64,000 nt of DNA from Mimachlamys varia (lineage: Eukaryota; Mollusca; Bivalvia; Pectinida; Pectinidae). Location: contig OX392536.1 in NCBI GenBank assembly GCA_947623455.1, positions 32,617,465 to 32,681,464 on the forward strand. The letters are read 5' to 3'. Position numbers and translations under genes: made by a program. The notes beneath the pieces are model-generated. The model did no database searches. It saw only the letters and a list, made by a program, of their open reading frames with translations, and was not told where the DNA came from. This document shows, piece after piece, positions 14,771 through 62,372 of the stretch; positions within the stretch are counted from its first letter, which is position 1; the number at the start of each line of letters is the position of its first letter.

Positions 14771-14963
14771 GTGTTTTGTTTACCACTGAGAGCTAAATCT
14801 GCTGACATTTAATTGATACAATGTCCACTATGGAGACCCAATTGCCATCATCACCTATCAAGAGGGATCACTCCGGAAACTTTGTGGCTATGAATGGTTC
14901 TACTACACATATTGATGGAGGAAACAACAGAATGCATGTGTACAAACGACAGCCCTCACACAG
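14771..14963 (+). CDS. NT5C2: NT5C2 coding exon 1 (with 50 nt of 5' UTR)
   Basis: An acceptor (tattttcag) at 14770 precedes 50 nt of leader and the ATG at 14821, so the 5' UTR is spliced and at least one non-coding exon lies upstream. It encodes residues 1-47 and ends in phase 2 at a gtaatg donor. The N-terminal tail is Ser/Gly/Asn-rich and lineage-specific. The last part of the exon and its donor are imperfectly repeated downstream in the intron. Confidence 0.9.
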
Positions 14964-17900
14964 GTAATGCAACTAAATCTAATACAAGGTACAATCAACT
15001 GTCATCTCTCAGGTAATTCAAACTATTTAATACAAACAACAGTTCTCACACAGGTAATTCAGTATACAAAGTACAGCCCTCAGTCAAGTTGGCGCAGTGC
15101 ATGGTAGTGGCCGCAGGTATTTCTGGCTAGGTGATTTGATGCTGTAGATGACTTTGAGGCCCGGACAGGGCATGAGTCAAAAATTGTCTTCCTTGGTCAT
15201 TTGTGTTTCTATGTTAATTTTGTTTAAAACTATATAAAGAATTACCACAATTTTTTTTAGGGTTATACAGTCTATACGGAAAAAAATGTGTGCACTTTGC
15301 ATAAATCCTTGAATCGGTTTATGCAAAAAAGTGAACACAAGTTTTTCAATATATACTGTATAACATTAAAAAAAATTGTGGTTATTCCTTATAATTTTAT
15401 TTCTAAAAATACGTATATAAGTCAGGTCTTATACAATGATTTGGTATTAATTATGACAAAAATTTAATGCTTTTGGAAAAAAACACAACCATGTGCATAC
15501 ATTTCACCTCTAAACAACTTCAACCAATCAGAAGTTTGATTACAAAATACAGCACCTAACATGGCGGTATATGACGTCATCACTTTTTGCGTTGTCTGAT
15601 TTTTGAGGTTATACGATATAACCTGAAAACGTTTAACATTGGGGGAATAGGCAAAATTTAAGATATACATATATATTAACAGACACATTAATCAGGATAT
15701 GAATACCCCCCCGCTAATAACAATAACCTTCCATCAATGTTAAGCAACACTGGTAGCTTGTTATAAGGAGGCATTTTACAGGTAAGACATGAGAGATCAT
15801 CAGTCAGTAAATTGGCTGAACCATTCGGCCGTCAAATAATGTAGATTTGGCTATGACGTTTTACAAAATGATGTTAAACTTTGTATTTTAGCATCTAATA
15901 TGATGGTTTCTGGTGTATTTTTTCCTGTAAGTGATAGTAAAGGTGACGATTCATTGAATGGTTGATGGTTAAAATGATATGTAATAATTGGGGGGTGTTT
16001 CATCATTATATCCTCCTTTTTGACAGGGATTGGCTGGGTGACATGATTTGTCCCACCAAAAGTTCAATTCATTATTGATTTTTTTTTGACAAAACAAGTA
16101 GACATATGTACCTTATTGACGTATAATACATATATAATATTGAAATAAGTCTTTGATGTTACATGATATTGCAAAATCTCAGAAATAATGTTTTTGTTTA
16201 ACAGGATATTTGTAAATAGAGCCTTACATTTGGAGAAGATTTCTGTGTATGGATTCGACATGGATTACACTCTAGCAGGTCAGTATCAACATGTTTCTTC
16301 ATGTTTATTATATATCTTATTATTCAAAAGAACTGTTTTCTCTTTTTTCGATTTTCATTTAGTGTAACTCATAGAACCTAACTTAACATGGAGTTGTAAG
16401 CAATTAATACATTCACTGACTGATTGGTTCTGATGACAGTGGGCATTATAACCATCTAAAACATTTAAACTAATTAAACTTATGGGGAGTGAGATATCCC
16501 ATGATTGTCATGGTGTTATTTTTCTTTTGATTGGTTTTACCAACTTAAAAAAGGAAACTTTTGCTACTGAAGGGTCCGTGGTTAGTGAGGAACCCTTGGT
16601 TACTGAGGGATCCTTGGTTACTGAAGAATCCTTGGTTACTGAAGAATCCTTGGTTACTGAAGAACCCTTGGTTACTGAGAAACCCTTGGTTACTGAAGAA
16701 TCCTTGGTTACTGAGAAATCCTTGGTTACTGAAAAACCCTTGGTTACTGAGGAACCCTTGGTTACTGAGGAATCCTTGGTTACTGAGGAAACCTTGCTTA
16801 CTGGAGAATCCTTGGTTACTGAAGGATCCTTGGTTACTGATGGATCCTTGGTTACTGATGGATCCTTGGTTACTGATGGATCCTTGGTTACTGAAGGATC
16901 CTTGGTTACTGATGGATCATTGGTTACTGAGGAACACTTGATAACTGAGGAACCCTTGGTTTATGAGGAATCCTTGGTTACTGAGGGATCCTTGATTATG
17001 GAGGAACCCTTAGTTTCTGGGGGACCCTTGGTTACTGAGGGATCATTGGTTACTGAGGGATCATTGGTTACTGAGGAACCCTTGATTAATGAGGAACCCT
17101 TAGTTTCTGAGGGACCCTTGGTTACTGAGGGATCCTTGATTACGGAGGAACCCTTAGTTTCTGAGGGACCCTTGGTTACTGAGGAACCCTTGGTTACGGA
17201 GGAACCCTTAGTTTCTGAGGGACCCTTAGTTACTGAGGAGCCCTTAGTTTATGGCTACTGTTATGGGTCTGTCACTTACCTTCTTGTATTGACTGGTCAT
17301 TAGTTACCAAAAAGATTTTGTTAAAAGCTTAGTTCATTTGCATTTAAATAATATTTCTAAGGCAAGATATTCTTCTGTTTCTAGTCTACAAATCACCAGA
17401 ATATGAAGCCATGGGATTTGATATGTTGAAAGACAGGCTGGTAACCATAGGATACCCTGATGCTATCAAAGAGTTTGAATATGATCCTACATTTGCATGC
17501 AGGTAACTACCATACATATTTTCTCTGATTATTTTTTTTACCTTCATTGTGTACACATATTTTGAAGAATTCTGCATGATTTTTATCGAAAAGTTTTTTA
17601 TAAATCTTTGAATTAGCAAATAAATTACATTTTGTATTTACAATACACATGATTGAATTGAAATACATTGATGATTTTGTTCATCTTACCTTCCATTTAA
17701 TGTATATTTCATCAATATTCCTTGGCGTTTCTGTTTCAGAGGATTGTGGTTTGATAAACAGTATGGAAATCTGTTAAAGGTTGATGCCTATGGTAACATT
17801 TTAGTCTGTGTTCATGGATTCAAGTTTTTAAAAGGGTAAGATCAATATGGTACATGTATACACAGCTTACTATCATTTCTGACATATTATTAATACATAA

Positions 17901-20900
17901 TACTTACATATATCATGTAGTTCTTTTCTTTGTACTTCTGTTTTTAAAATTATGTTTTCATTATTTAATAAACATCTGTAGTCATAATAACCAAGCATTC
18001 ACTCATTCACCCCTCTGTAATTTTAGTAGGCACTTCCATGCAGTGATATGGGTGGGTCTATCATGGTCTACAGTGATGAAAGGGTCAATCAATTGTGTCA
18101 TATTTTTTGGAGAATGTTTTGATTTAGGAAATTAACATATATCTTTGTAATTTTCAGTCTTGACAAACTTTAGGTAATAGCTAAAATAAGTTACATATTA
18201 TTATTGTTGAGATTGTCACGAGATAAGAAGCAAGGTCTATCTAAACCATGAACTCCAGCTGAGTGTAACGTTGATTTTAATGGATATTTCTGTACTTTAT
18301 TTTAGACATGAAGTGTCCAAGCTTTACCCAAACAAGTTCATACAGCTTGATGAAAACAGAATTTACGTGTTAAATACTCTGTTTAATCTGCCAGGTAGGT
18401 TATACTTATTAATATCTTAATTATCATGATTATTTTCCCTATTTAGATATTGGACTACACATGCACAAAAACATGGAAAATTTTGCATTATTATTTGAAT
18501 TACTTACAAGAAAATGTTTGATTTAATTCAATATTTAAGTAAAACAATTTTGTTGGTTTATACTTAAATAACACAATGGAAAGAGAGATCAGAGAAACAA
18601 GTATCTAAAAATTATTTTTTTTGTTTATTTTTACAGAGACATATATGATTGCCTGTGTCATAGACTATTTCAACTCCAGCAAGGATTATGTAAGGTCAGT
18701 ATCCAAGTATTTCTGTAACGAAAAGAATTCTCTATTTATTCAATATTTACTGTTCAGTGATCCTTCGAATTACAGAAATAGAGCTCAGCATGTCACTTTT
18801 ACAACACACGGACACAAATATTATATACAACACACATCCTATATATATACAGTGTATATACCGCATTACACCACCAAAACCCTCCAGCCCATATAATGTA
18901 AGCAGCCTCTTATAGTCAGGAAACTCTATCCTTTACATAATCTTTTAACTTTCAGGTGAATACTGAATCATGGTAAGCCAATGGTTATGAGGTCTATAAC
19001 CCCTTGACTATCTATAAGCTCTTAATTATTAGCATTAGGTCTCTTAATGTCAAATATTGTTTAATGCCATCATGGCCATATACATGAACATAGTTATGAT
19101 TTCTTATACGATAATGCCTTTATTTTCTTTTAAAAAGAATGTCTGGCTTATTTAACTTTTAAGAAAGTTCTTATTACTATTTTACAATATTGTGTAATCT
19201 AATTTACAGGTTTTCACTATAACTATTGGTCAATATTTTTTTATGTATACAATTAAGTGCTACTATAAACAATTTGTTTCTTTATTGAAAGATTGTCATA
19301 TATTGTACAAACATTCTTAAAATACTGCTGTTATAGTGTAGACATATGTTATGTATTACCATGTATTTACCTGACAAAGGATTGCTATGTGCTGCAGTTA
19401 TCATCCTTCCCATCATGCACAGCCAATACATGCATATATATGCTAAGACACCCTGCACACATTGTAAAGTTGTCATGTTTCAAAGTCATGTCAAGTTACA
19501 TGCTAAACTCAGTATTGTACACACATTTTTTTTTTTCAAACACTGGAACATTTTTCAAAAACACACATTCCAGTAACCATATACAGTCACTCTATTTATC
19601 TCAGAGTTTCTGAAACTGTTCAAAAAGAAGAATATACATTATTATAAGACTTCCTGAACACGAAAACAAATTCTCCAGTCCAAACATTTTGAGATCAAAT
19701 GGTTTGACTGTATAACATAAATGGGCTCTTTCATGGATGTGGAAACAGAATAAGAAAGGAAAATTGAAGGATTCTTCTCCCATTGAGTAAAAACCTTAAA
19801 CTTTTGAAACAGCAATTGAGACTGGAATTTCCTCTTCCCTCTATATTTGCACAAATGAAAGAGCCTATTTCTCCCATATCCTGTCTTAAAAGGAGGTTAA
19901 CAGATAATCAAGCCTTGGATTGTCATGATATATTTGCATCATAGAACGCGATGTATTTGGCAGGTCGGACTTTCCCTTGGCAACGATGCCTCGCTGCCCG
20001 GGGGCGAAGCCAAATGCCAAATAAGGGCGCAGGTGACTGCCCTCATTAGTAAGTGGTCAGGTAAGGTGTGCAGGTGTCGAGGCCGACCTTTGACCCTGAG
20101 CAATAACACCCTACCCTTGAAACCTCACAAGGGAGGTAATCACAGATAGAAAATATTGTAATTCTCTACCTGACAGGGGATTATGATTGGTCAACTTAAA
20201 AGAACAAAAGAAGTTTTAGGAATTTAATATATGACTATGAAACCAATTATCATGTTAATCAAACTTATGGAAAAATGATTTTATGCATTCATATCAGGAC
20301 AGAAATTATGTTCCTGACATAATCTGATTCGACTTATACTGTCACTGTCTGAGAATCAATTAAGGTAAGTTTGCCATCAGCAATTTTTTTGGGGGGGGGG
20401 GAATTTTTACTGAAACAATAGACTTTCAGTAGCAAACCCTCAGTTTTAGTTTCTATCTGTGGTGCTTGCCCTGTGAAGGTGATACATGTATATACACACA
20501 CATAAACTCCTGATCTTTGATCTAACTGGACAAAATTTGATCATGTGTGCTAAAATAGCATGAGTCTTTTGTTAATATTGATGCATTTTATTTGTTGCAT
20601 GTATCGTGATTAAGATTTGATCTGGCTATAGTCACCATTGCCACAGAGAATGTTTGTGAAAATCATAGGAAACTATTTATCATACAGCTAGTTCTGTTGG
20701 TTTAAATAAAGACAATATGTGGCAACAAAAATGTTTAAAAAAAAAAACGATAACGAGTAACAAGTATGCATGCATTTCAAAAGAAAATATGGTCATATTT
20801 GATGATTTTTTTTCTTCACTTTCTAGCCAATAAAAAGTCTACAAAATGATATTGGATAAGAACTTATAACGACCTTGTTATATGTACATTGTATGCACAC

Positions 20901-23900
20901 ATCAATCCATACCCGGTATTTAATAAATAAGGTGAAGGGTAAATTTCAGGTGTTAGGTATCTTATCTAAATGCTGAAAATTCAACTCTCTCTTCTGTCAG
21001 AGTTTAACCTTTGTGGAAGCTAGTTTGAGTGGTACATAGCCTCTTATTGACAGAATGGGGGAAGTGGAGGGGGGGAGGGGGGGTTGTGGCTGTAATTATA
21101 CAAAACAACAGTATATAAATGCAAAACGTTCTTATAATATAAAAACAACAGCATGAAATGATGACCTGTATGTTTGATATACTGAGTATTTATTATTATC
21201 TGAAGATATTGACTCAATAATGATCTAAATTTAAGTACTTAAAATAAAAGCCTGTTAAGAGATTGGACTTTTCAGATCATTTTTATGAAAATTATAAGCT
21301 GGTCATAATATCTGTGGAAAAATTGTTGCTCAATATCACTACATCATATAGTTGATGCTGATATCACAGTGAGATCATAGTATGAGGAACAGTAATACAT
21401 CGTAATTGTAATTGTAGAACTTTCAATGAAAAGTCATTACGAACCACAAAGGATATGAAATGTAGCAAATGACCTAGCTATCTATGAATGTAGGACTTTG
21501 TAATTAAAGGAGGATGTCATATATGGCGCAACATATATACCTAGATTTATTCCTGATTTAGATTTACTTGCATACATCAATGATATTCAGTATATATGCT
21601 GTGAACTTCTACTCCAACGATATAGTAAGGTTTTAGTAATCAATAAAGGAGTGACATCCTCACCGCACATCTTACAACATATCATCTTACTTTCCAGGAC
21701 GGCTGACGGAGTGAAATGTAATGACCTGTTTATGTCTTACCGATCAATATTTCAAGATCTGCGAGCTGCTGTAGACTGGGTTCACGAACAGGTAGGTGTT
21801 TTGTAAATTCTTCCGAGAAAAGAGTTCCAAAATCATTTCTAGGAAAATTATAATTGCAATTTGTTCATCCTATCTGCTGCTATGATATTTGTTTTAGGTA
21901 GTTGTTAAATGTTGCAGTGTAATATTTCATTATTTTTTAATTTCACAGATCACAAAATAATTGTAATACATGTACCTTCATTATACAGTTACCCCCTTAA
22001 AATATTTATTAAGTGCTTAATTTCACAAAATTTGATGCATTCACAAATTCAGCAAAATTAAAACCCTCTAGATAATAATTAACCATTTATAAATTTTATA
22101 AATTACAACTATAAATTGAATAGATTAGCTTTATCTAACCTAATTCAAAAGATTATGATTAAGGCCATGCAAATGAGCATTCAATATACAATTGAACATG
22201 ATGCAATATTTTAAGACAGTATGATACTTCTATCAAGCTATAACTGTCAGACAGGCCCCTATTCATGACACTGTTCTTGTGCTCAAGCATGGATTGAGTA
22301 CTCAAAGCAACTTTCTTAGAACTGGCTTAAATTACACCAAATGGTCAAAAAGTCAAATAAAACAATTTTCTGTTTTAAGTCTCTTCAATGCTTTCCCATA
22401 TCAGGAACAGAATAAGATTTTATTATTAATTTAGAGCCAAAACAAGAGTTTGGGATCAAGCATCATAAAGATTCTTGCTTTAACATTCAATGTGTAAGAA
22501 TGATTTTATGAATACAGACCAACTGATGAATGTCCTACGTATTTTATAAAAGCATAACAATTCTTAATAAGCAAAACTATTGACTCCGTTTTTAATCCCG
22601 CAGTCACATCACCTCCTTAAGTATTCTTTGGGTTTTAGGGAAGCTTGAAAGAAGACACGGTGAAGAACCTGGAAAAGTTTGTACATAAAGACAAAAGGCT
22701 ACCTCTGATACTCAACAGGTAATTTGTACTAGCTCTGATACTCAACACGTAATTTGTACTACCTCTGATACTCATCAGGTAATGTGTACTACTTCTGATA
22801 CTCAACAGGTAATTTGTTACTACCTCTGTGATCACCATTTGAGTTTATATGTGTGTGTGTGTGTGTGTGTGTGCGTAAGTTACCTGAATAAACATAAACA
22901 ATGTTTACCTTACAGAATGAGACAGTATGGTGCTAAGACTATGATCATCACCAACAGTGACTACACCTACAGCAATGTAAGTACAGGTCCTCCTATATAC
23001 TGTATCTCTACTGTAGTAGACTGTGTAGTCAATGATCATCACCAACAGTGACTACACCTACAGCAATGTAAGTACAGGTCCTCCTATATACTGTATCTCT
23101 ACTGTAGTAGTCAATGATCATCACCTACAGTGACTACACCTACAGCAATGTAAGTACAGGTCCTCCTATATACTGTATCTCCTACTGTAGTAGTCAATGA
23201 TCATCACCAACAGCGACTAAACCTACAGCAATGTAAGTACAGGTCCTCCTATATACTGTATCTCCTACTGTAGTAGTCAATGATCATCACCAACAGTGAC
23301 TACACCTACAGCAATGTAAGTACAGGTCCTCCTATATACTGTATCTCCTACTGTAGTAGTCAATGATCATCACCAACAGTGACTACACCTACAGCAATGT
23401 AAGTACAGGTCCTCCTATATACTGTATCTCCTACTGTAGTAGTCAATGATCATCACCAACAGCGACTAAACCTACAGCAATGTAAGTACAGGTCCTCCTA
23501 TATTCTGTATCTCCTACTGTAGTAGACTGTGTAGTCAATGATCATCACCAACAGTGACTACACCTACAGCAATGTAAGTACAGGTCCTCCTATATACTGT
23601 ATCTCCTACTGTAGTAGACTGTAGTAGTCATTGATCATCACCAACAGCGACTAAACCTACAGCAATGTAAGTACAGGTCCTCCTATATACTGTATCTCCT
23701 ACTGTAGTAGTCAATGATCATCACCAACAGCGACTAAACCTACAGCAATGTAAGTACAGGTCCTCCTATATACTGTATCTCCTACTGTAGTAGTCAATGA
23801 TCATCACCAACAGCGACTAAACCTACAGCAATGTAAGTACAGGTCCTCCTATATACTGTATCTCCTACTGTAGTAGTCAATGATCATCACCAACAGTGAC

Positions 23901-26900
23901 TACACCTACAGCAATGTAAGTACAGGTCCTCCTATATACTGTATCTCCTACTGTAGTAGTCAATGATCATCACCAACAGTGACTACACCTACAGCAATGT
24001 AAGTACAGGTCCTCCTATATACTGTATCTCCTACTGTAGTAGTCAATGATCATCACCAACAGCGACTTAACCTACAGCAATGTAAGTACAGGTCCTCCTA
24101 TATACTGTATCTCCTACTGTAGTAGTCAATGATCATCACCAACAGTGACTACACCTACAGCAATGTAAGTACAGGTCCTCCTATATACTGTATCTCCTAC
24201 TGTAGTAGTCAATGATCATCACCAACAGTGACTACACCTACAGCAATGTAAGTACAGGTCCTCCTATATACTGTATCTCCTACTGTAGTAGTCAATGATC
24301 ATCACCAACAGTGACTACACCTACAGCAATGTAAGTACAGGTCCTCCTATATACTGTATCTCCTACTGTAGTAGTCAATGATCATCACCAACAGTGACTA
24401 CACCTACAGCAATGTAAGTACAGGTCCTCTTATATACTGTATCTCCTACTGTAGTAGTCAATGATCATCACCAACAGTGACTACACCTACTGCAATGTAA
24501 GTACAGGTCCTCCTATATACTGTATCTCCTACTGTAGAAGTCAATGATCATCACCAACAGTGACTACACCTACAGCAATGTAAGTACAGGTCCTCCTATA
24601 TACTGTATCTCCTACTGTAGTAGTCAATGATCATCACCAACAGTGACTACACCTACAGCAATGTAAGTACAGGTCCTCCTATATACTGTATCTCCTACTG
24701 TAGTAGTCTGTGTAGTCAATGATCATCACCAACAGTGACTTAACCTACAGCAATGTAAGTACAGGTCCTCCTATATACTGTATCTCCTACTGTAGTAGTC
24801 AGTGATCATCACCAACAGTGACTACACCTACAGCAATGTAAGTACAGGTCCTCCTATATTCTGTATCTCCTACTGTAGTAGACTGTGTAGTCAATGATCA
24901 TCACCAACAGTGACTACACCTACAGCAATGTAAGTACAGGTCCTCCTATATACTGTATCTCCTACTGTAGTAGTCAATGATCATCACCAACAGTGACTAC
25001 ACCTACAGCAATGTAAGTACAGGTCCTCCTATATACTGTATCTCCTACTGTAGTAGTCAATGATCATCACCAACAGTGACTACACCTACAGCAATGTAAG
25101 TACAGGTCCTCCTATATACTGTATCTCCTACTGTAGTAGACTGTGTAGTCAATGATCATCACCAACAGTGACTACACCTACAGCAATGTAAGTACCGGTC
25201 CTCCTATATACTGTATCTCCTACTGTAGTAGACAATGATCATCACCAACAGTGACTAAACCTACAGCAATGTAAGTACAGGTCCTCCTATATACTGTATC
25301 TCCTACTTTAGTAGTCAGTGATCATCACCAACAGTGACTAAACCTACAGCAATGTAAGTACAGGTCCTCCTATATACTGTATCTCCTACTGTAGTAGACA
25401 ATGATCATCACCAACAGTGACTACACCTACAGCAATGTAAGTACAGGTCCTCCTATATACTGTATCTCCTACTGTAGTAGTCAATGATCATCACCAACAG
25501 TGACTTCACCTACAGCAATGTAAGTACAGGTCCTCCTATATACTGTATCTCCTACTGTAGTAGTCAATGATCATCACCAACAGTGACTACACCTACAGCA
25601 ATGTAAGTACAGGTCCTCCTATATACTGTATCTCCTACTGTAGTAGTCAGTGATCATCACCAACAGTGACTACACCTACAGCAATGTAAGTACAGGTCCT
25701 CCTATATACTGTATCTCCTACTGTAGTAGTCAATGATCATCACCAACAGTGACTTCACCTACAGCAAAATAATACTTTCGATACATCATTAAGAATGAAA
25801 AATGTTTAACTTTAAAAATTTTATATTACTTTTTTTGAAACAATGTTGGTTAATTTGAAGTTCCTGTTGAAATTCTCATTATAGAAAATACGATGTCTAA
25901 TCTTCTTTTCCAGAAAATTATGGAGTACCTGCTAGACTTCCCAGATGTAAGTACATTGTGTTAAATAACGGTCTGATAGATCTGATCCCTCTCACTACCA
26001 ACCACTTTATCTTCTACTCTAGTAATTGTTGTCAACTCCACATATAAAGTAGCCATGTTTGTAACATGAAGTCACAGCTGAATTTCACAAAACCAAAATA
26101 TTGATGTTTGAGCCCAGCTTTAAAATCACAAAAATATAGATCTAATCCCACTCGCTACCAACCAATTTATATTTTACTCTGGCTAATAGTTGTCAACTCC
26201 TTAGTTAACTGGTATCAACTCCTCATATAGCTATGTATACAACATGAGGTAACACCTACATTTCACAGAACCAAAAAGATGTTTGAGCCAAGCCTTAAAA
26301 TGAGTTTAATCATCAAAATTTTCAATAATAATTTTTTTTTCAAAAGACATTAACTAGGAATGTTATATGGAATAACATGGAATCAATAAAAAATGCACAA
26401 TAGAAATATCTCATCAGTATGTGATGACTTGTGATGAATTTAACTCTTGATACTAGAGTGATTCAATGAAATTCTAGAGCCTTCGAATTCTTTATGAGTT
26501 ATGTCCCTTAGAAGAGAACTGTTAAGCAACATGAAAACATGCACACACAGTTAATGTTTTAATTCACATTGACAGCTTCCTAAGAGAGATTGGACCTCAT
26601 ATTTTGACATCGTGGTTGTGAGTGCAAAGAAACCCCTGTTTTTCAAAGAAGGAACCATCATGAGGAAAGTAGACAGAGTAAGTAATCTGGTCTTATGAGT
26701 TCATGTTTCTTTTAATAAATTCTCACTAACTACACCAACAAAAAAACAAGTATTTTGGATATATGGGGAGCGGGAGATCCAACGTCCGTGAGGGTAGTTT
26801 CAATACGATTCTGTGATGCCCAGTATTTTGGATGCTAATATTAAAAGATTATTTTCTTTAAACATATTTGTGAAGATAATGTTTTCAGATTAAATGGAAA

Positions 26901-29900
26901 TGAAAAATCTCTTTTCTTTCAAGTATCTTACTCAAAGATTAAAGTACCGATAATATGATTTCAATCATTTGCAAAATTTTAATGACATTGGAATATATCT
27001 CTGATGGAACTTTGTTCCTTGATATATTAATTATGCAATATTATCTGAAGGGCATAACTTCTGAGGAAAGGAAGATTTATCAATGAGTCCCTATTATATT
27101 AATGCTGTGTCCCTGTTAATGGTACTACAATTTGCCGATGTTTGTTTGACAGGAGACGGGAAAACTTAGCCTTGGCCACCACCTCGGACCACTGAAGCAG
27201 GGCTGTGTGTACTCCGGGGGTACGTTGTAGAAAAACGTTCAATTTTGACTCTATACAAGATTACAATATTTAATAAACATAGTTCTTGCATGTTTCTAAT
27301 TTTGAACCAATATATTGAAGAATCCTTGAAATTTTAAAGCATACTATTTGACGAGAAACTATTTTGCATATTTTGTTGTGTTTGAAGTACACCCGACCTA
27401 ATTGATCTTACCTAGAGCTGAAAATGATTTTAGAATTTGTTTACATTGTTAACCATTATATATAGTAAATATAAAATGCAGATAATAATTTATGACAATG
27501 GTTGGTATGTCCAATTTTTACACCAGATTTAGGAACAAAAAATTTAATATCAATTAATTTTCGATATTTAAAAGCAGAAAATTTGATCCGTCTTACGAAC
27601 TAAAAAATGATTGCTGTATTCCAGGTTCGTGTGACCAGATTTCTCAGATATTGGGGGTGAACGGTAAAAATGTCTTGTATGTGGGGGACCACATCTTTGG
27701 GGACATCTTACGATCTAAAAAGGAATGGGGCTGGAGAACCTTCCTTGTGGTTCCGGAGCTCCAACAGGAAGTACGGGTCTGGACAGAGAAGAGGGTGTTG
27801 TTTGAACGTCTTGAAAGTTTGGAGTGTGAAATGGGGGAGAAATACAGGTAAGATTGGTCATATTAAATGTCTAGTGTGTGTAAAAATAGGGGTTTAGTAA
27901 GGGTAAGATCTAATGTTGAAAATATAGAGTATGGAATTTAAAGTGAAATATAACAAGTCCAACCCCATAGCATAGACCAGGCAGAAGTATAAATCAGGCT
28001 GTGATTTTGCTACCTGCAAATATTGTTTCATAGAACTTTTTTCAATAAAGATAAGTTTTACACTGCACAGAGGAAATTTCAAAGACAGGTGCTTCCTTTT
28101 AGACATCAATTGTATTTTAATTTGCTATATTATTATAAAATTTCTATCTAAACTACATGGAATGCTGTTGTTGTGTGTTACAGAAATCTAGACAGTAGTC
28201 ACATGGAGAAGCCAGACATCCATGGCATACAGAGGGCTATGATGGTAGGCACAACTCTTAAATACTTCTACAAAACAGATAGTGTAGATTGTCTCCCCTT
28301 AACATAGGATCAACTTTTAACACCAAACAACCAGTAGATGGAATCTTTTCAGATTCATTCTTGGTGAAGCGGGTAAAAATGTGAAATTGGAATTCCATCC
28401 CCAACCCAAAAGCAAGTGTGGAGCTCAAAAAAGAAAAATAACTAATATTTGATCAATCTTCTTCTCAAGTCTCAGATGTACTACAATCTGAATTTCTATG
28501 TATAAAGTTGGAAAGATAATCAGAGGCTTTAAGTAAATTGTTTAAAAATCTTCCTCAGACTGTCGTATCCTTTGTGTTTCACTTCATTTAACTGCTGTTG
28601 AAAGAAATTAAGCTGAATATAATATAGGTCAGGTGACTGTTAAGGCCCCTTGGACCTCTTGTTCCTTACACCAATTAGAACTTAACATGTCTGTTACTTG
28701 ATCAAATGTTGAAAATGAAATGTAAAATCATTGTTTTGCTTTTATATTGGTCAGACCAGGTGATAGAAATTGCAAAGAAACATATAAACATACGGTAAAT
28801 CTTATTTTTACGTTTCAGGAAACGGTGCATGAGCTTGACCAATCCTATGGGGTGCTAGGAAGCCTGTTTAGAAGTGGTGAGTTTTCATCTCCTGTAGGGA
28901 CTTATTACATGAGGGGAACATTTATCTTCTGATTCCTACAATCCATGCTTTATAAATAGTTTTTTAGCAGGAACCTGTTTGAGTTTATTTTGAGTGATTT
29001 TAATTGTCTTGTTAACCACATTAATTGATTGTTAAAATGAATTTATGTTGTGATTGGTTTAAGTGGTGCACTTCATGTATTATCTCCAAATTTTCTTTTT
29101 TAAGTTTTCCATGCCTTAACTTTTTTCTAAACTGAACATAATCATAATGAGTTGTCGTGTTGTTATGCTTACTTATATATAAATCAAGGATGCTTTGGAT
29201 CTCTATCAATTGGTTGATTAAGTTGTTTTATGGTCGTTTTGCTACTGCGAAGATGGGTATACAGCAGATGATGTGGAACATTAGAAGCCACTTACTGTAA
29301 AATCCCACTTACTCGAACTCGTGGAGACATGATCAATAGTTTGAGGAATACATGCATGGTATTCAAGTAATCTGAGGTTGGTTCAATATGTAAAACTTGG
29401 ATGGGACCAAACAAACTGTTCGACAAATGAGGGGTATTCAAGTGAACCGGGTTCGAGTAAGTGGGGTTTTACTGTATATTATATGGTGTGGGAATCCTAT
29501 CAGAAAATGAATACAATTGTTTTGTCGTGGGGCATACAAAAATTCCTCAAGTTTATTTCAATATTGATCCAGAGTCTGAATGAAATAAAATGATATTTGC
29601 AAAATTGTTTGCAAAAGAGTAAGAACAGGGATGATCAGACTTAAAATGTTGAATTATCGAGACTGTTTTGTATGTAACAGGTTCGAGACCAACGTTCTTT
29701 GCCTCCCAAGTCCAGCGGTACGCAGACATCTACTGCGGGGACTGGTTAAACATGCTTCACTACCCTTTCACCTACATGTTCCGCGCCCCTTCTATGCTGG
29801 TGAGTGGAGTTCTGTTGGTTACTTACATTGTATAAAAGATGTATTTCAGTCGTTTTACCTATAATGTATGTATCATAATCCCATCTCTTTTACTTTACTT

Positions 29901-30229
29901 GTATTGTAATAACTCAGTGATATAAATTTTCCATATTTAACATGTTATGTTACTCTTTGTTAAGACAAAGTCCAAACTAGTGGTGTTTTCTGTAGATCAG
30001 TGTTGTTCTTGTCCCACAGATGCCCCATGAATCGACCGTCGGACACGAACTCTCCTTTGAGGTAGACCCTGGAGAGATGGCTAACCATAGACTCAACAGC
30101 TTCGCAACAGATTCAAATTCAAAACTCACCAATGGGGTACACCTCCGTGCCGACAGACCAACGAAAGTGACACATCACCATGACGACGACGACTTTGATG
30201 AGGAGACCAGCAGTACAGGGAGTGATTGA
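14821..30229 (+). CDS. NT5C2: Cytosolic purine 5'-nucleotidase (cN-II), 17 coding exons
   Basis: Dephosphorylates 6-hydroxypurine nucleotides (IMP, GMP) in the cytosol; in vertebrates it is an ATP-activated tetramer of the HAD superfamily. Joining coding segments 14821-14963, 16205-16278, 17385-17502, 17740-17835, 18306-18394, 18637-18694, 21698-21791, 22639-22718, 22916-22976, 25914-25946, 26576-26677, 27153-27219, 27625-27847, 28184-28244, 28819-28876, 29681-29799 and 30020-30229 at GT/AG sites keeps one frame of 1686 nt, 561 residues plus stop. HAD motif I is GFDMDYT with nucleophile D66 and acid/base D68 (human D52, D54). Motif II is TNSDY with T263 (human T249). Motif III is KKPLFF with K301 (human K292). 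Motif IV is GDHIFGD with D360 and D365. The C-terminus is acidic, as in vertebrate cN-II. The first 47 residues do not resemble the vertebrate N-terminus. Identification is by recalled family sequence, not by a search. Confidence 0.97.
14941..15088 (+). repeat. Degenerate tandem repeat of NT5C2 exon 1 end plus donor
   Basis: The exon end (tacaaacgacagccctcaca and cag) with its gtaat donor recurs with donors at 15013 and 15054, and a fourth copy at 15063-15088 lacks the donor. Confidence 0.75.
15234..15392. repeat. Fold-back MITE (near-complete palindrome)
   Basis: About 159 bp folds on itself: aattaccacaatttttttta pairs with its complement near 15365-15390, ggttatacagt with actgtataac, and the tip with ttgcataaa and tttatgcaa. 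Confidence 0.8.
16205..16278 (+). CDS. NT5C2: NT5C2 coding exon 2
   Basis: Encodes residues 48-72, including the HAD motif I core GFDMDYT with catalytic D66 and D68. Acceptor tttaacag, donor gtcagt, ends in phase 1. The segment [14 protein letters not shown] closely matches the vertebrate HRVFVNRSLAMEKI. Confidence 0.95.
16566..17252. repeat. 18-bp minisatellite, about 38 copies, in NT5C2 intron 2
   Basis: The unit is approximately CCTTGGTTACTGAGGAAC with substitutions but no frame-breaking indels, so two plus frames stay open (273 and 126 codons). It lies wholly inside an intron whose flanking exons splice in frame without it, so the open frames are a repeat by-product. Confidence 0.9.
17385..17502 (+). 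CDS. NT5C2: NT5C2 coding exon 3
   Basis: Encodes residues 73-111, beginning VYKSPEYE, which is nearly identical in vertebrate cN-II. Acceptor gtttctag, donor gtaact, ends in phase 2. Confidence 0.95.
17740..17835 (+). CDS. NT5C2: NT5C2 coding exon 4
   Basis: Encodes residues 112-143, including [16 protein letters not shown], a highly conserved cN-II block. Acceptor ctgtttcag, donor gtaaga, ends in phase 2. Confidence 0.95.
18306..18394 (+). CDS. NT5C2: NT5C2 coding exon 5
   Basis: Encodes residues 144-173, including YPNKFIQ and [10 protein letters not shown], matching vertebrate cN-II. Donor gtaggt, ends in phase 1. Confidence 0.95.
18637..18694 (+). CDS. NT5C2: NT5C2 coding exon 6
   Basis: Encodes residues 174-192 ([19 protein letters not shown]), equivalent to the vertebrate ETYLLACLVDFF segment. 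Donor gtcagt, ends in phase 2. The 3-kb intron that follows is the gene's longest intron apart from the inferred first intron. Confidence 0.95.
18695..21697. other. NT5C2 intron 6, no exon seen
   Basis: Mostly AT-rich. A GC-rich patch at about 19950-20145 (tcgctgcccgggggcgaagc) ends in a caagggaggtaat motif common in mollusc repeats and may be a decayed mobile element. A G-rich run lies at 21057-21083. Confidence 0.5.
21057..21083 (+). other. G-rich run, G-quadruplex potential
   Basis: Runs of 5, 2, 7 and 7 G separated by short spacers on the transcribed gene's sense strand. Confidence 0.5.
21698..21791 (+). CDS. NT5C2: NT5C2 coding exon 7
   Basis: Encodes residues 193-224, including [21 protein letters not shown], the counterpart of the vertebrate [21 protein letters not shown]. 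Acceptor ctttccag, donor gtaggt, ends in phase 0. Confidence 0.95.
22639..22718 (+). CDS. NT5C2: NT5C2 coding exon 8
   Basis: Encodes residues 225-250 ([15 protein letters not shown] and onward to LPLILN). Ends in phase 2. The last 19 nt and the gtaatt donor form the first copy of a 30-bp, four-copy tandem repeat running into the intron. Confidence 0.95.
22700..22820 (+). repeat. 30-bp tandem repeat copying NT5C2 exon 8 end and donor
   Basis: Unit acctctgatactcaacag plus gtaatttgtact; GT positions at 22719 (used), 22749, 22779 and 22809 show an exact 30-bp period over four copies. Confidence 0.9.
22847..22875. repeat. (TG)n microsatellite
   Basis: About 14 TG repeats shortly before the exon 9 acceptor. 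Confidence 0.9.
22916..22976 (+). CDS. NT5C2: NT5C2 coding exon 9 (HAD motif II)
   Basis: Encodes residues 251-271. HAD motif II is IITNSDY with T263. The donor is gtaagt and the exon ends in phase 0. Its last 36 nt plus the donor are the first unit of a 34-copy tandem array filling most of intron 9. Confidence 0.95.
22941..25767 (+). repeat. 83-bp tandem array copying NT5C2 exon 9 end and donor, 34 copies
   Basis: Each unit has 36 nt of the exon 9 end (atgatcatcaccaacagtga onward to agcaat), then gtaagtacag, a pyrimidine-rich stretch and ctgtagtag tca. Thirty-three copies, including the authentic one, keep GTAAGTAC; the 34th ends agcaaaataat and lacks a donor. A few units are 9 bp or so longer (gactgtgtag insertion). 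Sequence identity is very high, indicating recent expansion or homogenisation. Confidence 0.97.
25914..25946 (+). CDS. NT5C2: NT5C2 coding exon 10 (33-nt microexon)
   Basis: Encodes residues 272-282 ([11 protein letters not shown]), equivalent to the vertebrate KIMTYLFDFP. Phase 0 at both ends, acceptor ttttccag, donor gtaagt. Too short to appear as a standalone open frame. Confidence 0.93.
25977..26300. repeat. Diverged tandem duplication of about 160 bp in intron 10
   Basis: Two successive segments share gatct(g/a)atccc, ctaccaacca, ttgtcaactcc and gatgtttgagcc in the same order. Confidence 0.75.
26576..26677 (+). CDS. NT5C2: NT5C2 coding exon 11 (HAD motif III)
   Basis: Encodes residues 283-316. 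It contains [19 protein letters not shown] with catalytic K301. The linker just before YFD is five residues shorter than in human cN-II. Phase 0 at both ends. Confidence 0.95.
27153..27219 (+). CDS. NT5C2: NT5C2 coding exon 12
   Basis: Encodes residues 317-338 (ETGKLSLG and onward to VYSGG), matching the vertebrate KTGKLKIG and VYSGG blocks. Ends in phase 1 at a gtacgt donor inside a run of five G. Confidence 0.94.
27625..27847 (+). CDS. NT5C2: NT5C2 coding exon 13 (HAD motif IV)
   Basis: The longest coding exon, residues 339-412. It contains [17 protein letters not shown] with D360 and D365 and [10 protein letters not shown], nearly identical to vertebrate cN-II. Ends in phase 2 at gtaaga. 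Confidence 0.96.
28184..28244 (+). CDS. NT5C2: NT5C2 coding exon 14
   Basis: Encodes residues 413-433 ([21 protein letters not shown]), aligned with the vertebrate [20 protein letters not shown]. Acceptor tgttacag, donor gtaggc, ends in phase 0. Confidence 0.93.
28819..28876 (+). CDS. NT5C2: NT5C2 coding exon 15
   Basis: Encodes residues 434-452 ([19 protein letters not shown]). The YG-x(2)-GSLFRSG block is invariant in cN-II. Ends in phase 1 at gtgagt. Confidence 0.95.
29293..29476. mobile_element. MITE with 26-bp terminal inverted repeats, NT5C2 intron 15
   Basis: Ends TACTGTAAAATCCCACTTAC and, on the opposite strand, TACAGTAAAACCCCACTTAC, extending to 26 bp. Mariner-type TA-flanked MITE is likely. 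Confidence 0.8.
29681..29799 (+). CDS. NT5C2: NT5C2 coding exon 16
   Basis: Encodes residues 453-492, including [13 protein letters not shown] and [10 protein letters not shown], conserved with the vertebrate FASQVMRYADLY and YPFSYLFRAA. Ends in phase 0 at gtgagt. Confidence 0.95.
30020..30229 (+). CDS. NT5C2: NT5C2 coding exon 17 with stop
   Basis: Encodes residues 493-561 and TGA at 30227-30229. It begins MPHESTV, as in vertebrates, and ends in a His-rich then Asp/Glu-rich acidic tail ([11 protein letters not shown]), functionally like the vertebrate poly-Glu tail. Acceptor gtcccacag. Confidence 0.95.
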   Translation: MPHESTVGHELSFEVDPGEMANHRLNSFATDSNSKLTNGVHLRADRPTKVTHHHDDDDFDEETSSTGSD

Positions 30230-36959: not shown

Positions 36960-38070
36960 ATTTAAAAAAAATGTTACATGTTTTAAATTCACAGTTTGCT
37001 GCATCTGAAAGTTGATAGATATAAATATTAATATAGAAAAAAAAACATTCAAATGTATTAGCTGTTGCATATACAAAATTTACCACATTTACATACGTAC
37101 AGGACCATCCCAGGAGTGCAACATTTTGCGAAAGATGGAGAAGCTTCAGCCAGCTTGATTTCTTTTGGCAGATTGTTCCACCCCTGAGTTGCATGGTACT
37201 GGAAAGACTTATGACCAGACTCTGTAGAGTTAACTTTGGGTCGTACCAAAAAGTTTACTTTCCTGAGATCATAAAAAGTATTTGCAATTGTCTGTGTAAC
37301 AAAGCCATGCAGGCATTCGGGAGACATTTTATAACTAATTTAAAAAAAACCTCTATTACCATATCTTTTATTCTTCTGACATGAATGTAAATTATTTGAT
37401 TTTTAGCGAAAGGATCTTTTCTTAAAGGGAAGTGGTAAACTCATTTTTAATAAAACGTAAAGTACGCTCCTGCATCTTCCATCTTATGTGTATTTCCAAG
37501 GCTACATAAATGCCATGCAAGAGGGTAGATGTTGAAATTGGAAAGTATAAAAGATTTAAATATTTTCCCCATCAGCTTTGTTAGATTATTGCTAATCCTC
37601 TTCAGTATACATAGTTATTCAGAAGTTTTATGGCAAAGTAGCTTAACGGTATTTTCACATTTAACAACCACGTAACCAATATTAAAAACTAAATGTTCTT
37701 TTTTTTTAAAGGACTCTTTTGTCATTACATACTGTCTGAAAATTTTCCGGTTTCGCTTTCATACCATTTTCACCTAACCAGTTCAATATATTTAGGCTTT
37801 CATCTTCAAGAGTTTTCGTCCGATCAGCATGGTTAGGAGACAGGGTATCGTCAGCATAGTTATAAAGGGTATACCATTTATCATATCAAATATTAAGTGA
37901 TTCTAAGTCTCTATATAAAACATTTTTAATGAAGTGTTATCAGCAAATAGACATGCAGTAGAGTCTAGTGAATAAGCAATATCATTTATATAAAAAAGAA
38001 AAAAAGGCCCAAGAAATGAACCTTGAGGACTCCATCACCTATCCTGCAAACATCAGAATATGTCATTAAT
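36960..38070 (-). mobile_element. Decayed non-LTR retrotransposon reverse transcriptase
   Basis: Reading the minus strand from 38045 downward, frames broken by frameshifts show PQGSFLGP, then YINDIA, FADNTS and YADDT-like palm motifs. A typical LINE C-terminal part follows: SFILSNFNIYPLAWH, RRIKDM, and SFQYHATQGWNNLPKEIKLA, the 'WNSLP' motif. Jockey/CR1/RTE-type element, not functional. Some open pieces (for example 37058-37327) survive. Confidence 0.75.
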
Positions 38071-42119: not shown

Positions 42120-42637
42120 TTGTCCCTAACTTATGAACATGTCTAGTTGAACTTTCAATTAGAAAAGTCATCTCTTAGAACTAAGTTGAGTCGCAAAAAG
42201 AGATTGAATGTGAAAAGTCGAGTTATTTTTATGAAGACGTCATCAATGATGCCTTATTCCCGAACCACGTTTACATAGCGATGTGTTCTTTAAAATCCAA
42301 TGTATGAGTTCAATATTTTACTGGTGTCTTTTTATATGAGATATCATTGGGTTGACATTTAGGTGACTTCAACATATATAAGGGGCTTGGTGAACCTCAA
42401 CAAACATCGTATCGCTTGACAAGCATAATTAGATGCCATTTGTATCTCTGTTTGTCACTTTTAGAGTTTGATATATAGAATAGCCACATTTTTGCCAGAC
42501 CAGATATGTTTGTAAATACGTCTACGGCTGGTGTCGGGGCCAGAGATAACTAGGGTTATTGTATAGATTTTTAGAGACGTCACGATAAAGTTAAAATCAC
42601 GTATGGTGTCTATTAGAATTTGATGAATCTGTTGCTG
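42120..42637. other. No gene seen
   Basis: Unassigned sequence between the transposase remnant and the 63-bp minisatellite. Confidence 0.35.
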
Positions 42638-43195
42638 TCTTGACAAGTTTAATAATCCTACTTGCCTAAAGAAGAAATTCAAATATACCAGCGATTTGTG
42701 TCTTGACAAATGTAATAGTTCTACGTTTCTAGAGAAGAAATTCAAATATACCAGCGATTTGTGTCTTGACAAATGTAATAGTTCTACGTTTCTAGAGAAG
42801 AAATTCAAATATACCAGCGATTTGTGTCTTGACAAATGTAATAGTTCTACGTTTCTAGAGAAGAAATTCAAATATACCAGCGATTTGTGTCTTGACAAAT
42901 GTAATAGTTCTACGTTTCTAGAGAAGAAATTCAAATATACCAGCGATTTGTGTCTTGACAAATGTAATAGTTCTACGTTTCTAGAGAAGAAATTCAAATA
43001 TACCAGCGATTTGTGTCTTGACAAATGTAATAGTTCTACTTTTCTAGAGAAGAAATTCAAATATACCAGCGATTTGTGTCTTGACAAATGTAATAGTTCT
43101 ACGTTTCTAAAGAAGAAATTCAAATATACCAGCGATTTGTGTCTTGACAAATGTAATAATTTTACGTTTCTAGGGAAGTAATTCAAATATACCAG
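42638..43195. repeat. 63-bp minisatellite, about 9 copies
   Basis: Unit of 63 bp (starts cagcgatttgtgtcttgaca) with few substitutions. Because 63 is a multiple of three and the unit lacks stops, long frames are open on both strands (161 codons plus, 288 codons minus). No flanking splice or coding support. Confidence 0.92.
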
Positions 43196-61300: not shown

Positions 61301-62372
61301 TGTTGTCTTTCCTTCTTTTGTTTTAATATTTTCTCGGTTCCTTTTGTGTATCCCATTTGGTTTTGGTTTCTCCTCAATTCCTCAGTCCTCATTGCTGTGT
61401 TCATCAGTGAGGTTTCAAGTTTCACATCATATCAAAGAGGCATAAGATATCAGTATAAATAATAAAAAAATCTTTGCAAAAATGGCAGAGAATTATTAAA
61501 ACTGAATACTCGTATAAACAGCTTTACTGCACAGAAAACCACATATAGATTCAACAAATAGCAATATAACACTGGCACAAAAAGGTTATACATACCAAAA
61601 AGTACCGTCTATATTTCAGATTCTAATGGTGTAATGAAGGAATTGGTATTCCCTAAAGCCCTTGACCTTGACCGTCCAAAGCGGGCCCGGACCACCTTCT
61701 CCCCGGAACAGCTGTATCAGCTGGAGAGGGAATTCCAGCGTAACCAGTACTTAGTAGGGAAGGAACGTACGGAGCTGTCCAAAAAACTTCAGCTCTCGGA
61801 AACACAGGTAATATTTCATTTGCAAGTTTAGTTTTCTATAAAATAAAAACAAATGATAACACTCTTTCCATATATATAAATTAATTAAATCTGGTTTTAG
61901 ATAATCTTTTTCCATTTATGGAAGCTTTTATTTTTTGATATATGTGTTCCATTCATACATCATATAAAACCAAGATGGGAGACGTTGAAAACCATGTTTG
62001 TATTTCATATCATGTATATTGCATGGTGTTTTATTCTTATGTAGTAAGGCCTACACAAATCCGTAGTAGCCTACCGCCTGCATTTTAAACTATAAAAAAA
62101 GAGGAAATTTCAATGAAAATAATTTTGTTCTGAAGTGCAATAAACCTAAATGGATATGTATTTTTACTTAAGTATAAGCAATTCAATTTTGACAGGTGAA
62201 AGTCTGGTTTCAAAATAGACGAACAAAGTACAAACGAGATCGAGGCCGCGAGGCGGAAGTGAGTGACAGTAAAGCAGAGAGTTTAGCTGCTTGTAACATA
62301 CTCAGGATCCTACAAACTCGGGCACCTACCTACCCATCGCCACTCCTACCAACCTACGCCTACCCCTACTGA
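55222..62372 (+). CDS. Vax: Vax-type homeobox transcription factor, 3 coding exons
   Basis: Nuclear DNA-binding regulator; Vax genes pattern the ventral eye and forebrain in vertebrates. Exons 55222-55354, 61620-61807 and 62196-62372 join at GT/AG sites into 165 residues. The homeodomain runs from PKRARTTF (residues 1-8) through [13 protein letters not shown] (48-60), with N51 present. The flanking LDRPKR and the pre-homeodomain YCKTMVVQD block match vertebrate YCRRILVRD, which separates Vax from Noto and Emx. The second intron falls between homeodomain Q44 and V45, a classic homeobox site. The ATG at 55222 is preceded by in-frame TAA at 55186. The post-homeodomain region ([12 protein letters not shown]) matches the vertebrate TCSVLRLLE motif. 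The protein is about half the vertebrate length because the C-terminus ends 20 residues after this motif. Confidence 0.95.
57385..57660. mobile_element. Inverted pair of reverse-transcriptase element tails
   Basis: Plus-strand tttaatcgattctgagttcg at 57390 faces its reverse-complement relative at 57505-57660 (aatcataactcaaaatcgat, aaccaggggcaaaatatgaa). Confidence 0.6.
57953..58185 (+). CDS. Uncertain exon-like open frame in Vax intron 1 (Cys-rich)
   Basis: After an ag at 57965-57966 a frame stays open to TAA at 58183-58185. It contains two N-glycosylation sequons and ends in a cluster [16 protein letters not shown] with a further Cys near the end, a spacing reminiscent of von Willebrand factor C modules. 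GC content is higher than the surrounding intron. The open frame alone is within chance for this window, so this is a weak call. Confidence 0.2.
58383..58558. mobile_element. MITE with TACTGTATAGTTG ends
   Basis: tactgtatagttg at the left and caactatacagta at the right, 13-bp inverted ends; interior has attcgcggg and gcgaaatt motifs. Confidence 0.75.
58639..58676. repeat. (TTTGG) microsatellite
   Basis: Seven or so imperfect units; same sequence as the tail of the local SINE family in reverse orientation. Confidence 0.8.
58952..59088 (-). CDS. Uncertain signal-peptide-like first exon in Vax intron 1
   Basis: On the minus strand an ATG at 59088 opens a frame. A hydrophobic stretch [11 protein letters not shown] and a small-residue site LANA precede AYDLHGLYK, followed by a gtaaaa donor. 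Local GC is raised. It could start a small secreted protein nested in the Vax intron; no matching second exon could be fixed. Confidence 0.2.
60800..61400. repeat. Pyrimidine-rich degenerate minisatellite
   Basis: Loose units of about 50-60 bp with cctcaattcctgttgttgtc and ttccttttgttttggt. Strong T/C bias on the plus strand keeps several overlapping frames open (60645-61462) with implausible Phe/Leu/Ser-rich translations. Confidence 0.8.
61620..61807 (+). CDS. Vax: Vax coding exon 2 (homeodomain helices 1-2)
   Basis: Acceptor atatttcag, donor gtaata, phase 1 in and phase 0 out. Encodes [20 protein letters not shown] and homeodomain residues 1-44, ending LSETQ. Confidence 0.97.
62196..62372 (+). 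CDS. Vax: Vax coding exon 3 (recognition helix, C-terminus)
   Basis: Acceptor ttttgacag. Begins [16 protein letters not shown] (recognition helix) and ends with a Pro/Tyr-rich tail, LLPTYAYPY, then TGA at 62370-62372. The codons for the last 20 residues are the first copy of a degenerate repeat that continues past the stop. Confidence 0.95.
   Translation: MKVWFQNRRTKYKRDRGREAEVSDSKAESLAACNILRILQTRAPTYPSPLLPTYAYPY

Follow-up and report, generated by a model that had tools for sequence, protein, structure and literature searches.

Clusters of tandem or mutually exclusive exons, of which insect Dscam is an example, place repeated exon-like sequences within one intron. The subject of this text is a repeat of another make, lying behind exon 9 of an NT5C2 gene in a window of 64,000 nucleotides from the bivalve Mimachlamys varia (Pectinidae; GenBank assembly GCA_947623455.1, contig OX392536.1, positions 32,617,465 to 32,681,464 of the forward strand; positions below are those of the window): the end of the exon, its splice donor and the start of the intron are repeated together. 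The closest described system is the variable number tandem repeat (VNTR) in intron 18 of human ABCA7, which is linked to the risk of Alzheimer's disease: the first two bases of its 25-bp unit are the donor of exon 18, and its alleles run from about 12 to 427 units (PMC5954066). There, the donor one unit downstream (25-bp retention) is used at about 2%, a value read from the "14 and 2%" given for two frameshifting events, and a longer VNTR goes with more skipping of exon 19 and lower overall expression. A second related process is intron gain by tandem duplication (the Rogers model), examples of which are ATP2A1, the 24-bp AGGT repeats of fission yeast and potato RdRp (PMC4974935).

In its layout the NT5C2 array is of the ABCA7 kind. 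It directly flanks a coding exon; the authentic donor of that exon forms part of the first unit and recurs in the later ones, which offer further donors; and taking the donor of the next unit leads to a frameshift and premature stop in ABCA7 and to a truncating stop here. The two differ as follows: 1) The NT5C2 unit measures 83 bp and includes 36 coding nt, hence the full exonic donor context, while the ABCA7 unit starts at the GT. 2) The 33 donors of the NT5C2 array are identical, and exons 1 and 8 bear further repeats. 3) Length variation and splicing have been measured in ABCA7, while the NT5C2 array is known from the sequence of one assembly alone. What is new is accordingly a unit that bears coding sequence, the 32 identical donors that follow the authentic one, and two more, diverged, donor repeats; the kind of element is known from ABCA7. 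Titles and the opening parts of abstracts disclosed no other report of a repeated splice donor, which is no claim that none exists.

With the Rogers model the locus shares the tandem duplication of a splice-signal sequence inside a gene, and in potato, too, the duplicate extends across an intron-exon boundary (PMC4974935). In contrast to the cases of that model, none of the three repeats includes the acceptors of introns 1, 8 and 9 (16205, 22916 and 25914), and the protein keeps its frame. Intron creation of this type, in which a duplicated exonic AGGT segment furnishes both ends of the new intron, does not fit: the repeats supply no pair of intron ends, and the exon 9 junction reads AATGT. 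The junctions of exons 1 and 8 read CAGGT. Unlike the members of Dscam-type clusters, the NT5C2 units are near-identical and preceded by a weak acceptor-like site (scored in one unit), and exons formed from them would stand only 41-44 nt apart.

The observed donor-bearing tandem array behind NT5C2 exon 9 is confirmed as real. A sequence-only reading of this stretch had described 34 copies made from the exon 9 end and its donor, 33 of the donors intact (one authentic and 32 equally strong) and the units homogeneous; all of this holds. Tandem Repeats Finder (TRF) calls the array at 23020-25767 (period 83, 32.6 copies, score 4837), the exon-end motif occurs 34 times, and AATGTAAGT occurs 33 times (22974..25683). 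The same reading had the 36 exonic nt and the 83-bp period right; the intronic part of the unit is 47 nt, of which 41, rather than 44, follow GTAAGT. The array opens with the exon's own last 36 nt (22941-22976), whose sequence matches the consensus. AAT/GTAAGT (the slash marks the exon-intron boundary) is present in 33/33 full units, the single sequence shared by all from -3 to +6 scoring 7.57 bits in each. Successive donors are 83 nt apart in 25 of 32 intervals, the other seven (91, 82, 92, 93, 92, 92 and 92 nt) resulting from the loss of 1 nt, the gain of 9-10 nt, or the two combined. Fourteen of the 83 consensus columns vary (columns 81 and 83 partly or wholly through the alignment of the insertion), and the 33 full units comprise 20 distinct sequences, 12 units being identical to the consensus; several substitutions are common to more than one unit, and the 1-nt deletion is restricted to units 1 and 2. 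Elsewhere in the window the unit is matched by 12 nt at most, in two places; GTAAGT itself occurs 20 times on the + strand outside the array. A lag analysis of shared minority variants for higher-order structure gave no p < 0.07 among the 25 lags printed. Intron 9 (22977-25913) measures 2937 nt, all but about 150 nt of it array. It holds no AATAAA or ATTAAA, of which intron 6 (3003 nt) has six; this probably just follows from the sequence of the unit.

Table 1. Features of the NT5C2 locus, in order of position within the window
Feature	Position	Strand	Basis
NT5C2 gene, 17 coding exons (hand-placed), intact 561-aa frame	14821..30229	+	Pfam, structure and protein matches
First coding exon of the NT5C2 model	14821..14963	+	gene model
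Third donor-spanning repeat, diverged: authentic copy and two decayed copies; donors 14964, 15013, 15054	14940..15085	+	alignment, repeat score 23
NT5C2 exon 8	22639..22718	+	gene model
Second donor-spanning array; unit of 30 bp, made of the 20 nt that close exon 8 (final CAG) and the 10 nt that open the intron	22699..22828	+	TRF, alignment, repeat score 33
NT5C2 coding exon 9 (phase 0 at its end), from which the array derives; 61 nt	22916..22976	+	intact frame, exon 9/10 junction peptide
Array of 83-bp units, 33 of them full, plus a partial, donor-less 34th copy	22941..25767	+	TRF, motif counts, unit alignment
Authentic exon 9 donor GTAAGT (GT at 22977)	22977..22982	+	motif positions, gene model
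In-frame stop met if donor 1 is unused; precedes donor 2 (23068)	23049..23051	+	open reading frame end; simulation
Stretch with 32 downstream donors, every one AAT/GTAAGT (GTs 23068 to 25686)	23068..25691	+	motif count, donor scoring
Final partial exon-end copy, donor-less, stops inside the exon-derived part	25733..25767	+	motif count, alignment
NT5C2 exon 10, 33 nt, phase 0-0	25914..25946	+	gene model; splicing simulation

The gene that carries the array is, by its sequence, identified as NT5C2 (cytosolic purine 5'-nucleotidase): the predicted protein contains a full-length PF05761 (5_nucleotid) domain (E 3.5e-167 over 1-459 of 460) and is of NT5C2 type, matching structures of cytosolic purine 5'-nucleotidases with a best E of 2.7e-201 (6fxh). 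Among the best 120 of 6339 protein matches, the closest is that of Pecten maximus (90% identity over 99%) and the second closest that of Ostrea edulis (69% over 92%). The peptide formed by joining exon 9 to exon 10 (SDYTYSN/KIMEYLL) recurs in the Pecten maximus protein P0001, which at the level of the protein speaks for splicing from donor 1.

What would follow from choosing each of the 33 donors was simulated. Donor 1 alone yields the 561-residue frame; each of the 32 others ends at a stop after 295 residues, because that stop precedes donor 2, and retention of intron 9 ends identically. The sequence-only reading had blamed a broken frame, the repeat period being 83: this is the case for 21 of the 32 downstream donors, while 11 keep the frame and are truncated at 295 residues all the same, so that the harm common to all is the stop. 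Skipping exon 10 in the simulation is in frame (550 residues), skipping exon 9 is not. A protein with the read-through tail was found in none of the protein databases, a weak negative since one candidate was compared and none longer than 1.75 times the query was considered.

How would the first of 33 identical donors be chosen? It seems likely to us that the array is a donor-anchored minisatellite (VNTR-like, seen in one assembly) whose first donor is used by exon definition. A segment across the exon 9/intron 9 boundary would have been tandemly duplicated, and slippage or unequal exchange would then have raised the copy number to about 33; the duplications were presumably tolerated because the first copy retains an intact exon and donor. 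Donor 1, nearest to the exon 9 acceptor and first to be transcribed, would most likely be the one spliced (exon definition combined with transcription order), and the low one-unit retention in ABCA7 supports this. The claim of the sequence-only reading that some mechanism must favour the first donor was a fair inference; nothing special is needed, for exon definition would suffice, as that figure of about 2% suggests. Some splicing, a few per cent by expectation, would leak to donor 2 or later ones and give the truncated frame, on an mRNA probably removed by nonsense-mediated decay, and a long array may make inclusion of the 33-nt exon 10 less efficient. Analogy with ABCA7 predicts that donor 2 is used to a small extent and that exon 10 may be skipped. 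The array presumably also varies in length, which is the hallmark of a VNTR.

Duplication at exon 9 could have been promoted by a fold-back. Within the intronic part of the first unit the exon end recurs in inverted form, with 15 matches and a bulge of 6 nt. Comparison with shuffled introns gives p 0.01, and an equal or higher score is reached at 8 of 1100 window positions, those in the array included. This would not be a general route: at the 15 other donors of NT5C2 no inverted copy stands out (lowest p 0.16).

Several observations weigh against use of the first donor. On an approximate scale in bits calculated from general metazoan frequencies, donor 1 at 7.6 bits ranks with the six lowest-scoring of 16 donors in the gene, which range from 6.5 to 11.5 bits, five others lying at 6.5-7.9. 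Donors 2 and 3 would likewise give exons of usual length (152 and 234 nt, against 61 nt for donor 1). In local folding, the probability that donor 1 is unpaired from -3 to +6 is 0.0027, the last of the 33 (mean of the rest 0.019), and over +1 to +6 its accessibility ranks 30th of 33. In classical assays that set two strong donors against each other, the choice often falls on the intron-proximal (last) donor; by that rule splicing would go to the array's far end. Finally, the canonical form of ABCA7 is outweighed by its alternative forms taken together in 90% of the samples from BA10 and in 31% of those from hippocampus (PMC5954066).

RNA structure as the cause of the choice (a hairpin before the downstream donors only) was tried as an explanation and is unsupported by the folding models, in which donor 1 appears poorly accessible; in single folds compared with shuffles neither the exon 9/unit 1 stretch (z 0.58) nor the unit 2 stretch (z -1.33) stands out.

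The locus is a natural experiment in which the spliceosome chooses among many identical donors, strength and sequence being held constant while position and context vary. Usage of each donor along the array would separate exon definition, or first-come choice, from intron-proximal preference.

NT5C2 carries two other repeats that span a donor. The sequence-only reading mentioned neither these nor the acceptor-like sites in the exon 9 units. The array at exon 8 comprises 4.3 copies by TRF, its alignment suggesting a decayed fifth that extends past 22828, and CAG/GTAAT is kept in 3 of 4 clear copies. At exon 1 the authentic copy consists of 24 exonic and 25 intronic nt, and CAG/GTAAT is present in all three copies. 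The apparent ages of the three repeats differ, and with three such ages in one gene the birth and decay of donor-spanning arrays could be traced. The three array-bearing donors (14964, 22719, 22977) are all among the gene's six weakest of 16, a post hoc observation that uses the approximate scale named above.

Do tandem repeats in this genome arise preferentially at donors, through a mutational or a selective bias? We think this unlikely. When a junction is scored as repeat-bearing if a repeat within 300 nt crosses it with a score of at least 20, 3 of the 16 donors qualify (exons 1, 8 and 9) vs 0 of the 16 acceptors, with three different units of three apparent ages, and the inverted exon-end copy of the exon 9 unit could promote slippage. 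Against this stand the base rates: 7.8% of 9015 window positions qualify by the same rule, giving P(at least 3 of 16) = 0.12; outside the exon 9 array the figures are 3.6% of 8601 positions and P = 0.019; and within NT5C2 introns the share is 25.6% of 1960 positions if the array is counted and 7.5% of 1555 if it is left out. Taken singly, with the range for a repeat set at 2.8 kb and 600 random positions as the comparison, the sites have values of 0.09 (exon 1), 0.075 (exon 8) and 0.043 (exon 9). Moreover, an inverted copy is lacking at the donors of exon 1 (p 0.70) and exon 8 (p 0.50), and the pattern was noticed after looking. The recurrence of donor repeats in NT5C2 is marginal against the repeat content of the window: a lead, not a result.

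The array might instead be a maintained regulatory device, its downstream donors serving as poison sites or as a U1 sink that sets the level of productive NT5C2 mRNA. This appears improbable. It is true that every downstream donor copy tested truncates the product in simulation (at 48 residues for the two copies at exon 1, 251 for the three at exon 8, 295 for the 32 at exon 9), but reading on into an intron tends to end at a stop, so that truncation can be expected even where no selection acts. It is also true that the donor core is unchanged in 33/33 exon 9 units and that, suggestively, at exon 1 it is the sole fully conserved 8-column window of 42. Yet at exon 9 eight of 75 windows are as clean as that of the donor, which makes its conservation ordinary; in the exon 8 array it is absent, the donor window containing 2 of the 6 variable columns; and low variation may merely reflect recency. 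Donor conservation as a firm claim is weakened by the exon 8 array. The lack of AATAAA and ATTAAA from intron 9, which would suit such a device, is shared by the short introns 5, 14 and 16.

An array that is partly an artefact of assembly, a few real copies having been inflated or many more collapsed, is given little chance by us. Long near-identical repeats are prone to assembly error; on the other side stand the 20 distinct sequences among the 33 units, the substitutions they share and the variants specific to the edge of the array, such as the deletion in units 1 and 2, a pattern of variation that is that of a repeat and not of a loop and that favours the donor-anchored minisatellite. The other two donor repeats of the gene measure about 130-150 nt, short enough for one read of ordinary length to span either.

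Two of the preceding ideas can be combined: donors would recurrently seed tandem amplification in this lineage, the arrays would be kept (an old one at exon 1, a middle one at exon 8, a young one at exon 9), and the copied donors would tune productive NT5C2 mRNA as poison sites. Such a scheme strikes us as very improbable, and functions for conserved donors or for cassette exons are possible, not likely. That each unit is a potential 39-nt cassette exon, an acceptor-like TACTGTAGTAG preceding its exon-derived part and 13 residues being inserted in frame, is highly improbable: an AG does stand at -39 in 32/32 downstream units, a distance divisible by 3 that puts the unit in phase 0-0 between exons 9 and 10, a full-length frame results in 25 of the 32 in simulation, and the acceptor of unit 5, the sole unit scored, reaches 3.7 bits in the 39-nt form and 5.0 bits in a 42-nt form, values that overlap the lower end of the gene's own range of 3.4 to 10.6; but the better-scoring 42-nt form starts with TAG (27 of 32 units have its AG, and one of these 27 has an open frame), the introns between neighbouring units would be only 41-44 nt long, and the insert would duplicate part of the conserved TNSD region, which we take to be a catalytic motif.

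Other repeats and genes lie in the same window. Within NT5C2, intron 2 contains an 18-bp unit repeated 37 times (16579-17249), open in several frames (one of 283 residues) and with Pfam matches only below the cut-off, and intron 10 contains a direct duplication (25976-26301) whose copies are 160 bp apart and about 73% identical. Beyond NT5C2, a - strand open frame at 37061-37339 resembles a retroelement fragment by eye, with no Pfam match, and a 63-bp unit is repeated 8.9 times (42636-43195) within a 292-residue open frame on the - strand, likewise with no Pfam match. Farther on, at 61562-62372, lies a split homeodomain gene, presumably VAX/EMX-like, whose first exon matches PF00046 with E 1.2e-14 and whose second exon scores 22.3 bits, just under the cut-off of 22.9.

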